Positions 27,775-63,540 of a DNA stretch of 64,000 nucleotides are shown here, piece after piece. This DNA is from Dongia mobilis (GTDB lineage: Bacteria; Pseudomonadota; Alphaproteobacteria; Dongiales; Dongiaceae). The stretch lies in contig NZ_SNYW01000012.1 in the NCBI RefSeq assembly GCF_004363235.1, positions 193,501-257,500 of the forward strand, given 5' to 3'. The notes under the pieces were generated by a model. The model saw only the letters and a program-made list of their open reading frames with translations. It had not been told where the DNA came from and ran no database searches. Both the position numbers and the translations under genes were made by a program. Each line of letters starts with the position of its first letter. The stretch's first letter is position 1.

Positions 27775-28743
27775 TCATTGTCCGATGTTCTGGATCGAGA
27801 CTGCGCCGCCGCGGTTGATGCGGATCGACCGCACCGACATCACCTGCGGCAGACCGGGCGTCTCGACCACATCCTCGGTCTCGACCACCGGCATCTCGTA
27901 GATCCCGCTGTCGAGCCCGCCCTGCATCAATTCGTCGAGCACGCGGCTGACTTCGCGATCGGTGACATAGAGCGGCGCCTTGGCATCGGCCTCGGCGGCG
28001 ACCTCGTCGCGGGCCCAGCCCCTGAGCGACAGCACAATGGAGCCGAGCTGGCTCGCCACCATGATCTTCTGCGCCTGCTCGGCGGTGACCTCGAAGGTGA
28101 CGGTCTGGCTGTTGATGCCCGGACCGGTGCCGGGTTCCTTCGCCAGCAACTGGTTGACGGCGATCACCTTGACGTCGCGCATGATCGCCTCGGCGGCATA
28201 GCGGCTGATGGCGTCGCGCCCGGTCGTCTCCGGCACGCCGGCGAGGTCGCGTGCATTGGTGATCAGCATGATGTCGACATGGTCGCCGGGCAGGATCAGG
28301 CCGGCAGCGCCCGAGCGCGCCGAAACTTCGACCGTGACCGAGCGCATGCCGGGCGCCAGCACCGCCGAGGTCATGCCGGCATCGCCCTGCTTGATGACCA
28401 TCGCCGCTGTGACCGGTTCGCCCAGCATGACGGCGCGGCGGGTCATGGTATCGCGGAAGGGGGCCAGCGGATCCTCGCCGGCCGCGGCTTTCACCGTGAA
28501 GCGCTGGTCGATCACCGCCTTCGGCCATTGCTCCCAGCGCAGATCGGCTTCCGCCAGGATCTCGCCGGGACCGATGTCGCGCGCCGCCACCAGCACTTCC
28601 TCGACCCCGCCCACCGCTTCGGTCGGCGTCGCCTGCTGCTGTTGCTGAAGCTGCAGGTCGCTCAGGAAGCGCATCGCCAGAAAGGCCGTCAGGCCGGCGG
28701 CACCCAGCGCTACCACGATGAGGATAATCACAATCGGACGCAT
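27775..28743 (-). CDS. cpaB: CpaB/RcpC pilus assembly protein
   Basis: 322 residues with one N-terminal membrane anchor, a Gln-rich linker, a SAF domain (about 45-110, 'VLVAARDIGPGEIL') and the RcpC/CpaB domain that follows. It is periplasmic and is thought to help the secretin. ATG at 28743 has GAGGGG upstream; in-frame ATGs at 28758 and 28776 are alternatives. It is the first gene of the leftward cpaB-C-D-E-F-tadB-C operon, and five GANTC sites lie 150-220 bases upstream. Confidence 0.9.
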   Translation of the reverse strand: MRPIVIILIVVALGAAGLTAFLAMRFLSDLQLQQQQQATPTEAVGGVEEVLVAARDIGPGEILAEADLRWEQWPKAVIDQRFTVKAAAGEDPLAPFRDTMTRRAVMLGEPVTAAMVIKQGDAGMTSAVLAPGMRSVTVEVSARSGAAGLILPGDHVDIMLITNARDLAGVPETTGRDAISRYAAEAIMRDVKVIAVNQLLAKEPGTGPGINSQTVTFEVTAEQAQKIMVASQLGSIVLSLRGWARDEVAAEADAKAPLYVTDREVSRVLDELMQGGLDSGIYEMPVVETEDVVETPGLPQVMSVRSIRINRGGAVSIQNIGQ

Positions 28744-28893
28744 CAGGCCCCTCGCCATCCCGTCGCCGCGGGCCAACTGGCCCAGCCGGAGCGATCAGGA
28801 ATCTCACAACGACGGCCGCACCCCTTCGCGGATCGAAGTTCGGGTTGCGCCGTCACTATGCCCCGTAAAGCATTATTACCAATTTTTGGTTAA

Positions 28894-28961
28894 GACTCCA
28901 GCCGAAACGCGCAAATGAGTCAGCGATTCATGCCTTTGAGTCAGTAACTTGGACGTGAGTC
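28894..28961 (-). promoter_or_regulatory. Cluster of five GANTC sites upstream of cpaB
   Basis: GANTC occurs at 28894, 28917, 28925, 28938 and 28957, that is five sites in 68 bases; three belong to a TGAGTC direct repeat spaced 21 and 19 bases apart. GANTC is the target of CcrM, the cell-cycle adenine methyltransferase of alphaproteobacteria. The segment is AT-rich and lies where the cpaB operon promoter should be. A methylation-sensitive promoter is inferred, not shown. Confidence 0.55.
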
Positions 28962-55218: not shown

Positions 55219-56256
55219 CTAAGAAACCCGGATGCGCGGATTGAGCAATGCGTATCCGACATCGGAAATCAGCTGCGTCAGCAGCACGACGGCAACCGAG
55301 ACGAGACCGCAGGCCAGCACCAGATCGATGTCGTTGTTCGACGCGGCCTGCACCAGCAGCCAGCCGAAACCCTTGTAGTTGAAGATCGATTCGACGACGA
55401 CGACGCCGGTCAGCAGCCAGGGAAACTGCAGCATGATCACGGTGAAGGGTGCGATCAGCGCATTGCGCAGGGCGTGCTTGACCACGATCGCGCCGAAACT
55501 GAGCCCCTTCAGCCTGGCGGTGCGGATGTACTGCGCCGTCATGACCTCGGCCATGGAGGCGCGGGTCATGCGCGCGATATAGCCGATGCCGTAGATGGCC
55601 ATGGTCATCACTGGCAGGGTGAAATTGTTGAAGCTGATGCCCTTCGTCAGCGCGGTCGCGGCCGAGCCGTTGAGCCAACCCAGCCAGGAGGCGAAGATTG
55701 CGGTGAAGATCACCGCCGAGACGTATTCCGGTGTCGCCGTCGACACGATCGAGGCGACGGAAAGCGTTCGATCCAGCCGGGACCCCTCGCGCATGCCGGC
55801 CAGCACGCCGATCAGGAGCGAGACCGGCACCATCACCACCATCACCCAGAACATCAGGATCCCGGTCGCCGCCAGGGCCTCGCTCAGGCGATCCGCGACC
55901 GGGGTGCGGAAGGCGGTCGAGCAGCCGAAATCACCCTGCAGCACGCCGGAGAAGCTGGTTTCCGTGGATTCGTCGCAATAGCGGAAGCGCGGCACCGGCT
56001 GGCCGGTCGACGGGTCGATCACGGGCTCCTTCGGCCACACCCCGATCCAGCGGCCGAAGCGGATGGTGAAGTCATCGCGATAGCCGTTGCGCTGCAGCCA
56101 GTTCTCGAGGTCCTGGTCGCTGGCCCGCATCTCCGTCTGGAAGATGGCGAGCTTGCGCAGGTTCGGCTCCAGGTTGACGAAGGCGAAGACAACGAGGCTG
56201 AGGCACAGCATCGTCAACAGCATGACGCCGAGGCGCCTCAGGATGAATGTGAGCAC
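55219..56256 (-). CDS. Dipeptide-type ABC permease (DppB-like)
   Basis: 345 residues with the DppB N-terminus ('FILRRLGVMLLTMLCLSLVVF'), a periplasmic insertion of about 70 residues after TM1 ('WLQRNGYRDDFTIRFGRWIG'), and five further TM helices with the EAA loop. It follows the binding-protein gene after a large hairpin, and precedes the DppC-like gene. Confidence 0.9.
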   Translation of the reverse strand: MLTFILRRLGVMLLTMLCLSLVVFAFVNLEPNLRKLAIFQTEMRASDQDLENWLQRNGYRDDFTIRFGRWIGVWPKEPVIDPSTGQPVPRFRYCDESTETSFSGVLQGDFGCSTAFRTPVADRLSEALAATGILMFWVMVVMVPVSLLIGVLAGMREGSRLDRTLSVASIVSTATPEYVSAVIFTAIFASWLGWLNGSAATALTKGISFNNFTLPVMTMAIYGIGYIARMTRASMAEVMTAQYIRTARLKGLSFGAIVVKHALRNALIAPFTVIMLQFPWLLTGVVVVESIFNYKGFGWLLVQAASNNDIDLVLACGLVSVAVVLLTQLISDVGYALLNPRIRVS

Positions 56257-60679: not shown

Positions 60680-61090
60680 ATGAATATTGCAGAAAAACTC
60701 GACAGCATCGGCAAGCTTGCGCCACTGCCGGAGCAGGCGCCGACCATGCGCGTCTTCATCCGCGATCTGGTCCTGCCCTGCTCGATCGGCATCCACCAGC
60801 ACGAGCGCCTGGCCCAGCAGCGCATCCAGATCAACGTCGAAATGACCTGCCTCGAGCACCCCAACATCAATGACGATGTGGACAATGTGGTCTGCTATGC
60901 CACTGCGGTCATGGGGATCAAGGCAGTGGTGGCGGACGGCCATACCAATCTGGTGGAGACCCTGGCCGACCGGATCGCCGAGATCTGCCTGCGCGACCAC
61001 CGGGTGCTCGGCGTCAAGGTGCGGATCGACAAGCTGGAGGTCTTCAAGGAGGCCTATAGCGTCGGTGTCGAGATCGAACGGCGCCGCTAG
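60680..61090 (+). CDS. folB: Dihydroneopterin aldolase
   Basis: A 136-residue enzyme of folate synthesis that converts 7,8-dihydroneopterin to 6-hydroxymethyl-dihydropterin. 'GIHQHERLAQQRI' supplies the conserved Glu, and 'KLEVFKEAYSVGVEIER' carries the catalytic Lys. About 23 residues precede the usual start. ATG 60680 follows GGGAGG. It is followed by the unusual AT-rich folB-uvrC gap. Confidence 0.93.
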   Translation: MNIAEKLDSIGKLAPLPEQAPTMRVFIRDLVLPCSIGIHQHERLAQQRIQINVEMTCLEHPNINDDVDNVVCYATAVMGIKAVVADGHTNLVETLADRIAEICLRDHRVLGVKVRIDKLEVFKEAYSVGVEIERRR

Positions 61091-61202
61091 GACGCGGGTC
61101 GCGAATCGGTCAGGTTTTTTCGACTCGGCTTCGGATTTTTTCACCAGGAAAAGACCAAAAGTTAAGCCTTTCAGGACTCTAATGACCGAATCCTGAGCCA
61201 AG

Positions 61203-61211
61203 TTGTTCACA
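61203..61211 (+). promoter_or_regulatory. Near-consensus DnaA box (TTGTTCACA)
   Basis: Matches the relaxed DnaA-box form TTNTNCACA, about 190 bases upstream of the perfect box in the same gap. Confidence 0.45.
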
Positions 61212-61321
61212 ACGCCGGAGCCGAGTCGCAACCCGCCGAAAGAGTCAAGCTGGATTCCCATTCGTGACGATCGGGTTGCATTTACTTTCCAAGAAACATT
61301 TATAAATCAAAGCGATAGTTT

Positions 61322-61343
61322 TTATGCCTGTTTTTTGGGCAGA
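61322..61343 (+). repeat. 22-nt intergenic hairpin element, copy 2
   Basis: Nineteen of 22 positions match copy 1 at 42017-42038, including the T-run loop and GGGCAGA tail. Here the stem has a wobble pair in place of a Watson-Crick pair. Confidence 0.5.
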
Positions 61344-61402
61344 TTGAGGGAGCGGTTGATTCCGGGACCGGCCACTCTCAAGGTCCGGGGATATCGACAG
61401 AG

Positions 61403-61411
61403 TTATCCACA
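61403..61411 (+). promoter_or_regulatory. Perfect DnaA box (TTATCCACA)
   Basis: Exact consensus R-type box. Six bases downstream an inverted 7/9 match (61417-61425, GGTGGATAT) forms a near-symmetric pair around AGATTTG. Confidence 0.7.
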
Positions 61412-61542
61412 GATTTGGTGGATATCCGTAAAGTTAACGCGCCCGACGAACCATGCTAGGTTTCGTGCCGCCTTCGTTCCAGGCCGCCCGCCGAGGCGCG
61501 GACCGGGCAGAGTGCGGATTAAATCCCTTGATTAACAACCCG

Positions 61543-63540
61543 ATGGGCATGATCGCAGACCCCAAGACCGCGCCGGGCCCCGCCGACGAGAAGGAACCGG
61601 CAGCCGAAGAGGAGCTCGGCATCGAGATCGATGAAGCGCCCGACGGAGCGGCGGCACGGCCCAAGGGAATGAGCCGCCTCGCCCATGGCGCCGCCATCAT
61701 CCGCGCCAAGGTCCGTACCCTGCCCGCCTCGCCCGGCTGCTACCGCATGATCTCGGCCGCCGGCGAGGTACTTTATGTGGGCAAGGCCAAGGACCTCCGG
61801 AAGCGGGTCACCGCCTATACCCTGCCCCGGCGCCAGCCCAACCGCATCCAGCGCATGATCGCCGAGACGGCGACCATGGAATTCGTGACGACCCATACCG
61901 AGGTCGAGGCGCTGCTGCTGGAAGCCAATCTGATCAAGCGCTACCGCCCGCGCTTCAACGTGCTCCTGCGCGACGACAAGAGCTTTCCCTATATCCTCAT
62001 CACCGCCGACCATCCGGCGCCGCAGATCACCAAGCACCGGGGCGCCCGCAACCGGCCGGGACAGTATTTCGGTCCCTTCGCCAGTGCCGGTGCGGTCAAC
62101 CGCACCATTATCGCCCTGCAGCGCGCCTTCCTGCTGCGGCCCTGTTCCGATTCCATCTTCGCCAGCCGCACGCGGCCCTGCCTGCAGTACCAGATCAAGC
62201 GCTGCTCGGCGCCCTGCGTCGGGCGCATCTCGGAGACCGACTACGCCGAACTGGTCGAGGAGGCGCGCGATTTCCTGACCGGCAAGAGCGACAAGATCAA
62301 GCAGCGCCTGACCGTCGACATGCAGGCGGCCTCGGACGCCCTCGAATTCGAGCGCGCCGCCAAGCTGCGTGACCGCATCCAGGCCCTCGCCCTCATCCAG
62401 AGCCGCCAGGACATCTATCTGGAAGGCGTCGAGGAGGCCGACATCATCGCCGCCTATCACGAGAGCGGACATACCTGCATCCAGGTATTCTTCTTCCGCA
62501 ATCACGGCAATTACGGCAACCGCGCCTATTTCCCGGCCCATGACAAGAGCGCGGAGCCGCCGGAGATCCTGGCCGCCTTCATGGCGCAGTTCTACGAGAA
62601 CAAGACGCCGCCGCGCCTCATCCTGGTCAACGAAATGCCGGCGGAGATCGACCTCCTCACCGAGGCGCTGTCGATGCGCGCCGGAGCCAAGGTCGAGATC
62701 CTGGAGCCGAAGCGCGGCGACAAGCGGAAACCGGTCGAACATGCCCTCGCCAATGCCAAGGATGCGCTGGCCCGCCGCATGGCCGAGAGTGCAAGCCAGA
62801 ACAAGCTGATGGCCGGCATGGCGGAGGTGTTCGGCCTGGAGGCGCCGCCCGACCGCATCGAGGTCTATGACAACAGCCATATCAGCGGCACCAACGCCTA
62901 TGGCTGCATGATCGTGGCCGGCCCCGACGGCTTCATGAAGAACCAGTACCGCAAATTCGCGATCAAACCCGCCAATCTGGCAGCCGGCGAGGCGCCGATC
63001 GAGCCCGGCGACGACTATGCCATGATGCGCCAGGTGCTGACCCGCCGCTTCGCCCGCGCCCTCAAGGAGGACCCGGAGGATGCACGCGACACCTGGCCCG
63101 ATCTGGTGCTGATCGACGGCGGCCAGGGGCAGTTGACCGTGGCCGAGGAGGTCTTCGCCGAACTGGGCATCGACGACGTGGCGCTGGCCGCCATCGCCAA
63201 GGGGCCGGACCGCAATGCCGGGCGCGAGCGCTTCTTCATGCCGGGGCAGGCGCCGTTCAGCCTAGATCCCAAGCACCCGGTGCTCTATTACCTGCAGCGC
63301 CTGCGCGACGAGGCGCACCGTTTCGCCATCGGCACGCACCGCGCCAAGCGCTCGGCCGATATCGCGAAGTCACCCCTGGACGAGGTCGCCGGCATCGGCG
63401 CCAAGCGCAAGAAGGCGCTGCTGCTGCATTTCGGTTCCGCCCGGGCGGTGGCGCAAGCCGGCCTCACCGACCTCGCCGCGGTCCCCGGCATATCGGCAAC
63501 GGTCGCCCGCAAGATCTACGACCATTTCCACCAGAGCTGA
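61543..63540 (+). CDS. uvrC: UvrABC excinuclease subunit C
   Basis: A nuclease of about 665 residues for nucleotide excision repair, making the 3' and 5' incisions with UvrB. The GIY-YIG domain ('[26 protein letters not shown]') is followed by a cysteine-bearing region, a UVR domain that binds UvrB, the RNase H-like endonuclease ('[15 protein letters not shown]', '[11 protein letters not shown]') and a C-terminal helix-hairpin-helix. The start is uncertain: ATG at 61543 or 61549 is used, while the frame is open from ATG 61453. An acidic extension of about 40 residues precedes the GIY-YIG core. Confidence 0.93.

Follow-up and report, generated by a model that had tools for sequence, protein, structure and literature searches.

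The window, as we call the whole stretch of 64,000 nt of Dongia mobilis DNA that was analysed (G000:C7:193501-257500; the genome comprises 4.19 Mb in 14 contigs), contains a gap at positions 61091-61542, bounded by a folB-like gene and by uvrC, both located on the forward strand. At uvrC the nearest named sequences were those of Dongia mobilis and an uncultured Dongia (86% identity); the genus is placed in Dongiaceae, Rhodospirillales, Alphaproteobacteria. The upstream gene scored above the cut-off of the FolB domain model and slightly under that of the folB equivalog model TIGR00525 (69.3 vs 72.2 bits). No Rfam match at gathering scores was obtained in the folB-uvrC gap, and a tRNA scan found none. 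The gap includes an AT tract between about 61285 and 61345 and, at 61120-61235, near-inverted repeats with GANTC sites (CGACTCGGCTTCGG vs CCGGAGCCGAGTCG and TCAGGACTC vs GAATCCTGA). All features are collected in Table 1; the possible uvrC promoter listed there may resemble the Caulobacter housekeeping consensus.

Table 1. Features of the folB-uvrC gap and its neighbours (positions in the window)
Feature	Position	Strand	Basis
folB-like gene, upstream neighbour	60680..61090	+	NCBIfam FolB domain model TIGR00526, above cut-off
Cluster of eight GANTC (CcrM-type) sites	61103..61362		motif count; comparison with relatives
Distal DnaA-box-like site TTGTTCACA, 200 bp before box II	61203..61211	+	TTNTNYACA kept in relatives
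Conserved module (IHF-like site to DARS-like core), match to model R1	61299..61426	+	69.0 bits, E 1.1e-19
IHF-like site AATCAAAGCGATA, one mismatch to WATCAANNNNTTR	61305..61317	+	consensus match
Imperfect palindrome TGCCTGTTTTTTGGGCA	61325..61341		alignment A1, columns 37-53
DnaA box III ATATCGACA, partial, 3 bp before box II	61391..61399	+	core scan
DnaA box II TTATCCACA, perfect	61403..61411	+	exact match, sole exact copy in the window
DnaA box I ATATCCACC (GGTGGATAT as + strand letters)	61417..61425	-	core scan
Possible uvrC promoter GTTAAC ... GCTAGGTT	61433..61462	+	sequence; partly conserved in Dongia
uvrC, downstream neighbour	61543..63540	+	NCBIfam TIGR00194, 535.5 bits (cut-off 285)

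A first-pass annotation of this DNA had described a perfect DnaA box, a near match, an inverted partial box, an AT tract and eight CcrM sites, seven of them inside 155 bases, and all of these elements were found where it had placed them. The exact 9-mer TTATCCACA occurs 12 times in the 4.19-Mb genome vs 14 times for a reversed-letter control; exact boxes are unenriched genome-wide and a single box therefore means little alone. It is the arrangement of the boxes, rather than the single exact box, that exceeds chance. Read on the reverse strand, the core was observed to consist of box I, 5 bp, an inverted box II, 3 bp and an inverted box III, so that boxes I and II are head-to-head. In a scan with this fixed geometry the three-box core at 61391-61425 scored 23/27, the best score in 427,969 bases of the D. 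mobilis genome (about 10% of it), in which the sole other score above 17 came from an overlapping register of the same core. An order-2 Markov simulation of 4.2 Mb yielded a core score of 17 at most.

Seven of the eight GANTC sites fall in 61103-61257. The window as a whole is poorer in GANTC than its shuffles (104 vs 293.9), and the gap is the densest 260-bp GANTC stretch (eight sites) in the 427,969 bases scanned, which hold 786 GANTC in total. The matching 340 bp contains between three and eight GANTC in each of the seven Dongia genomes, with about one expected in each. This amounts to 44 sites vs about 7 expected, and the enrichment was weaker in 39 other loci (103 vs 24.2 expected), the expectation being each locus's own mean, uncorrected for AT content or intergenic position. 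A second GANTC cluster, with six sites in 163 bp and five of these in 68 bp, was noticed at 28799-28961 of the window, between a cpaB-like gene (Flp pilus) and a prepilin-peptidase-like gene, both named by sequence reading; a one-mismatch DnaA box lies nearby at 28719. CcrM-linked control of the pilus would be a guess.

Conservation of the boxes in relatives, which the first-pass annotation had left to comparison, was confirmed: parts of the gap are conserved in the six other Dongia genomes and the module extends far beyond the genus. A model, R1, was trained on 34 loci chosen for holding TTATCCACA upstream of uvrC. The match in the window is the only one in the whole D. mobilis genome and the only one in 454,338 bases made up of stretches of this genome and the hemE loci of six relatives. 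At E values up to 0.01, R1 matched 53 of 80 uvrC loci (30 of the 80 had been in the training set). At E values up to 0.001, matches were obtained in 245 of 385 alphaproteobacterial genomes, or in 203 of the 315 of good quality. The copy number is low: 217 of the 245 matching genomes, about nine in ten, have a single match, and four genomes of one family (f51) have three to five each. The other 140 of the 385 genomes gave no R1 match under the stricter filters, nor did the uvrC loci of Caulobacter and Bradyrhizobium. Two R1 matches lie within 7 kb in Aerophototrophica crusticola (L043:9593-9722 and L043:16239-16339; 79.7 and 40.6 bits), a pair of possible DARS-like sites.

On the uvrC strand, the order of the module is TTKTNCACA, about 90 bp, the IHF-like WATCAANNNNTTR, the palindrome TGCCYA-AT-rich-TRGGCA, about 50 bp and the three-box core, which reads TTATCGACA, 3 bp, TTATCCACA, 5 bp and an inverted box. 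Its parts were compared in the 48 uvrC loci whose box II is exact. Core scores were 22-25 in 46 of them, the others being L086 (21) and L079 (17), the latter with a poor IHF site and palindrome as well. These two loci, which match R1 poorly, were included in the 48-locus counts and kept outside R1 and the comparison with control windows. At spacings of 5 and 3 bp the mean box match was 6.67/9 and 7.23/9; other spacings reached at most 4.54. The IHF-like site showed no mismatch in 22 loci and one in 17, and only 14 of 9,200 control windows had 0-1 mismatches; two of the seven Dongia genomes have two mismatches. A distal box TTNTNYACA occurs 195-213 bp before box II in 45/48 loci, 34 at 199-203 bp and seven at 208-213 bp, about one helical turn further. 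The core of the palindrome precedes box II by 77-79 bp in most relatives, and palindromes of the type TGCCTATTTTTTAGGCA, at a fixed distance from the DnaA boxes, are kept as far as Shimia (L112).

The first-pass annotation did not consider a DnaA-reactivating site (DARS), whose box geometry the gap has, as judged from its sequence. The available excerpts of PMC5742627 and PMC10380432 define the DARS core as three DnaA boxes with box I opposite to II and III, and those of PMC10380432 call the head-to-head pair I-II characteristic of DARSs and functionally essential. Box I of the window core is likewise inverted relative to boxes II and III, and the spacings of 5 and 3 bp found at the 48 loci are those of DARS1 and DARS2 in E. 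coli. DARS1 lies between bioD and uvrB, has the sequence TTATCCACT-ATTCC-TGTGGATAA-CCA-TGTGTATTA and scored 24/27 in the fixed-geometry scan. A score of 22/27 was obtained for a core between rppH and ygdT, adjoining mutH, which we regard as putative DARS2; excerpts of PMC6090056 place DARS2 at mutH and mention sequences resembling DARS at uvrB and mutH of Vibrio cholerae. As E. coli controls, the datA stretch and 50 kb around oriC gave at most 19, and two other 50-kb stretches at most 20.

The training set of R1 included no sequence labelled gammaproteobacterial (L070 is labelled just "Proteobacteria bacterium"). In 164,403 E. coli bases, R1 ranked DARS1 first with 28.1 bits, followed by DARS2 (17.9), oriC (17.1), datA (11.4) and a site before nrdA (9.6). 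Since oriC scored nearly as high as DARS2, only the core geometry and DARS1 discriminate.

DARS1 and the module share the three boxes, the inversion of box I and both spacings, and both have an uvr gene as neighbour; the R1 match covers 85 bp of DARS1. The joint commonest spacers between boxes I and II in the 48 loci are ATTCC, as in DARS1, and ACTCC (8 loci each), whereas the window has AAATC. DARS1 further differs in standing beside uvrB and not uvrC and in lacking an IHF-like match, and the part of R1 with the IHF site and the palindrome remained unaligned to it. DARS2 has the same core geometry and predicted one-mismatch IHF matches, which start 58 bp beyond box III. The predicted IHF-like site of the module lies on the same side, and in most loci its end is 73-75 bp away from box III. 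An IHF-binding site at a set distance from the core would be expected of the DARS2 subtype; the predicted site is fixed in the relatives and departs from the consensus at one position in the window. Fis sites are a further requirement of DARS2, and Fis is described as conserved among E. coli-related gammaproteobacteria (excerpts of PMC4245941 and PMC8682772); the module instead has the palindrome, with no E. coli counterpart found, and the distal DnaA box.

On the core definition and the descriptions of datA and DARS in these papers, we read the gap as a probable DARS-like site for the recycling of ADP-DnaA to ATP-DnaA, here combined with a cluster of CcrM sites, and assign this reading a probability of about 0.6. 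The term is meant as a statement on the presumed manner of working, and membership of the class would hang on the release of ADP.

Two other ways in which a DnaA-binding site might act have to be weighed against the DARS-like reading. According to excerpts of PMC5742627, datA has essential boxes of the same direction around an IHF site, between its boxes 2 and 3. In the module, too, three widely spaced boxes of one direction (the distal box, III and II) flank the IHF-like site, an arrangement that also fits a datA-like site at which IHF would bend the DNA between these boxes and promote hydrolysis of DnaA-bound ATP; the element also lies 13-24% from parS in 9 of the 11 chromosomes listed below. 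However, the inverted box I, which belongs to the conserved core and scores well at the DARS spacing in 46/48 loci, is outside minimal datA in the same excerpts, and E. coli datA itself reached no more than 19/27 and 11.4 bits. We consider a datA-like function distinctly unlikely.

Alternatively, the boxes could form a passive DnaA-titration cluster, or be part of some other DnaA-containing module in which the factor binding the palindrome is the main actor. Four of the invariant columns of alignment A1 fall within the palindrome TGCC(Y)A-AT-T(R)GGCA, which persists even in loci that depart from the strict IHF pattern, such as L112. Titration, however, would have no need for a fixed head-to-head geometry of 5 and 3 bp, and three good boxes would be few for such a role; this explanation seems very improbable to us.

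The linkage of the module to uvrC was examined among the best matches listed of the 245 genomes. Eighty genomes were used, 75 in list order (already-fetched ones omitted) and five known beforehand to be unlinked (G071, G207, G370, G144 and G238); L234-L237 were picked as extra or paired copies, and L245, from the genome of L207, was counted once. In 68/75 genomes the distance from the end of the module to the aligned uvrC start, downstream on the same strand, was 38-926 bp (median 133.5), and uvrC was directly downstream in 28/30 top loci and in 12/15 further genomes. Module and uvrC were found at separate places in the other 7/75 genomes, as in the five known ones. Unlinked modules adjoin folB without uvrC (G071), an SDR gene and a PLP decarboxylase gene (G207), rpe/coaE (G370) or pnp (G144), and extra module copies adjoin LrgB (G062) and EF-G (G356). 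In eight loci without an adjoining uvrC, the IHF-like site had 0-1 mismatches in seven (L235 had no IHF match), the distal box was present in four, and the palindrome consensus was lacking in L250 and L252.

As its fallback, the first-pass annotation had proposed a DnaA- and CcrM-regulated uvrC promoter: DnaA bound upstream of the -35 element and GANTC methylation would tune uvrC to replication. The usual position of the module, on the uvrC strand and with uvrC next to it, and the promoter-like pair that follows the boxes in Dongia speak for such a promoter. The module persists, however, away from uvrC in several genomes, beside genes as different as pnp, rpe/coaE and the SDR-decarboxylase pair or beside folB with uvrC gone, and across families there is little conservation in the stretch that separates the module from uvrC, in contrast to the 200-bp geometry, which is retained. 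The occurrence of the module away from uvrC in a minority of genomes therefore makes it more than a mere uvrC promoter. Regulation of uvrC is possible as a side effect, and as the main function of the site we judge it unlikely.

The primary proposal of the first-pass annotation, that the gap is a chromosomal replication origin, was rejected on the GC skew of three genomes and on the distances to parS. DnaA boxes, an IHF-like site and an AT tract do occur together in one gap, as an origin would have them. Skew was determined in samples along the chromosomes, and no change of sign was observed at uvrC in Dongia G002, Nitrospirillum viridazoti or Stella vacuolata. On the 2.45-Mb contig G002:C1, which has uvrC at 575 kb and hemE at 2,049 kb, forty 20-kb samples were taken and the skew was negative in 14 of the 15 between 188 and 1,061 kb. 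In N. viridazoti it was positive in 7/7 samples from 5 to 889 kb, with uvrC at about 587 kb, and the turn on chromosome 1 falls between 2.80 Mb and 0.005 Mb, near hemE (38 kb) and parS (50 kb). In S. vacuolata it was negative in 5/5 samples from 4.38 to 5.55 Mb, with uvrC at about 4.89 Mb, and turns between 5.55 Mb and 0.005 Mb, near hemE (5.61 Mb) and parS (5.63 Mb). G002 showed no sharp turn at hemE either, a point in favour of the origin proposal. The D. mobilis genome itself is only partly informative: on contig C7 no turn of the skew was seen as far as the contig end, which lies 6 kb beyond the site, and beside hemE, on contig C3, 60 kb of positive skew are followed by values near zero or below. 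The motif GGGNAGGG was found at at least 100 places in G002, counts being taken within the skew samples only. Among the matches listed for G002:C1 there were many GGGGAGGG pairs, some 50-110 bp apart on the listed strand and distributed along the contig, which may be a dispersed repeat.

For 11 non-Dongia cases among 25 genomes searched, the separation of the element from the closest parS was calculated by hand from coordinates; relative to the length of the chromosome or main contig it came to 4.4, 12.7, 13.5, 13.7, 15.6, 17.9, 18.2, 20.3, 21.8, 24.0 and 41.2%. The remaining 14 genomes comprise five without parS and others that have the element and parS on different contigs or for which place or extent is lacking. 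In Azospirillum canadense, uvrC is 1.56 Mb from parS on a 3.12-Mb contig. Three of the seven Dongia genomes have a parS-like site some 14 kb away from the element (G002:C1:589284, G004:C13:588941 and G006:C15:76401), a finding that supports an origin and speaks mildly against the position outside the origin expected of a DARS; the same three genomes also have parS-like sites near hemE. In another genome, eight parS-like sites were seen within 5 kb (G223:C1:1812124-1817028) and ten more scattered, 18 in all.

The Caulobacter-type origin lies at hemE. This origin and the hemE gap of D. mobilis, which carries its own DnaA boxes, resemble the uvrC gap in having DnaA boxes and GANTC sites; the box spacing in the hemE gap is different, and that gap contains no match to the IHF consensus and no core score of 21 or above. 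The hemE gaps of the six other Dongia genomes align poorly, and neither these nor that of D. mobilis gave an R1 match. With the skew sign constant across uvrC in three genomes, hemE and parS near the turn in two, and the element away from parS in 11 chromosomes, an origin in the folB-uvrC gap retains hardly any probability; a location outside the origin is what the DARS-like reading predicts.

Every protein-binding and nucleotide-exchange step of the DARS proposal is one that we infer. ADP-DnaA would bind boxes I and II head-to-head, in a complex stabilised by box III, and the facing AAA+ domains would loosen ADP. Apo-DnaA would then leave, take up ATP and become competent at the real origin, probably near hemE. 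IHF, of which the alpha subunit is encoded in the D. mobilis genome, would bend the DNA about 73 bp from box III; the bend could bring the distal box, 200 bp away, and the palindrome-binding factor to the core and so gate the reaction. As an inference alone, the GANTC/CcrM sites may play a role in timing, and in Dongia their cluster could tie the activity of the site, or uvrC transcription, to the passage of the replication fork.

The recurrence of the module suggests that many alphaproteobacteria, too, have a DNA site recharging DnaA. Sequences similar to DARS1 and DARS2 are said to occur in many proteobacterial species in excerpts of PMC10380432, which cites an earlier paper. The excerpts of PMC5742627 mention conservation of DARS2 in beta- or gammaproteobacteria, and those of PMC4245941 and PMC8682772 speak of gammaproteobacteria for DARS. 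In the literature searched, partly available as excerpts, no description of DARS in alphaproteobacteria was found, and earlier notice is possible. The available portion of a paper on Caulobacter DnaA activity (PMC3193534) treats only inactivation via HdaA, and the words "DARS" and "reactivat" are absent from it. For the return of ADP-DnaA to ATP-DnaA outside the E. coli group, the conserved module, which has DARS geometry and matched 245 of the 385 alphaproteobacterial genomes sampled, offers a defined 350-bp target.

It is possible, with the odds rather against it, that the module represents a class-wide, low-copy alphaproteobacterial DnaA-reactivating site, either a homologue of gammaproteobacterial DARS1, which likewise has an uvr gene as neighbour, or independently rebuilt to the same geometry. 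IHF, the distal box and the palindrome-binding factor would then replace Fis, and in Dongia CcrM methylation would gate the activity, the recharging of DnaA being reset as the fork passes. If this is true, the reactivating half of the DnaA cycle would be older than the E. coli group, or more convergent, and the resemblance of a conserved non-coding block to an origin, in the eyes of a reader of the sequence, would be explained.

Elsewhere in the window, positions 55464-55637 matched the Rfam Cis52 sRNA family (Ruegeria) with 79 bits. The match lies opposite an oligopeptide-type ABC permease gene located on the other strand (55219-56256), and the family may reflect conserved coding sequence.
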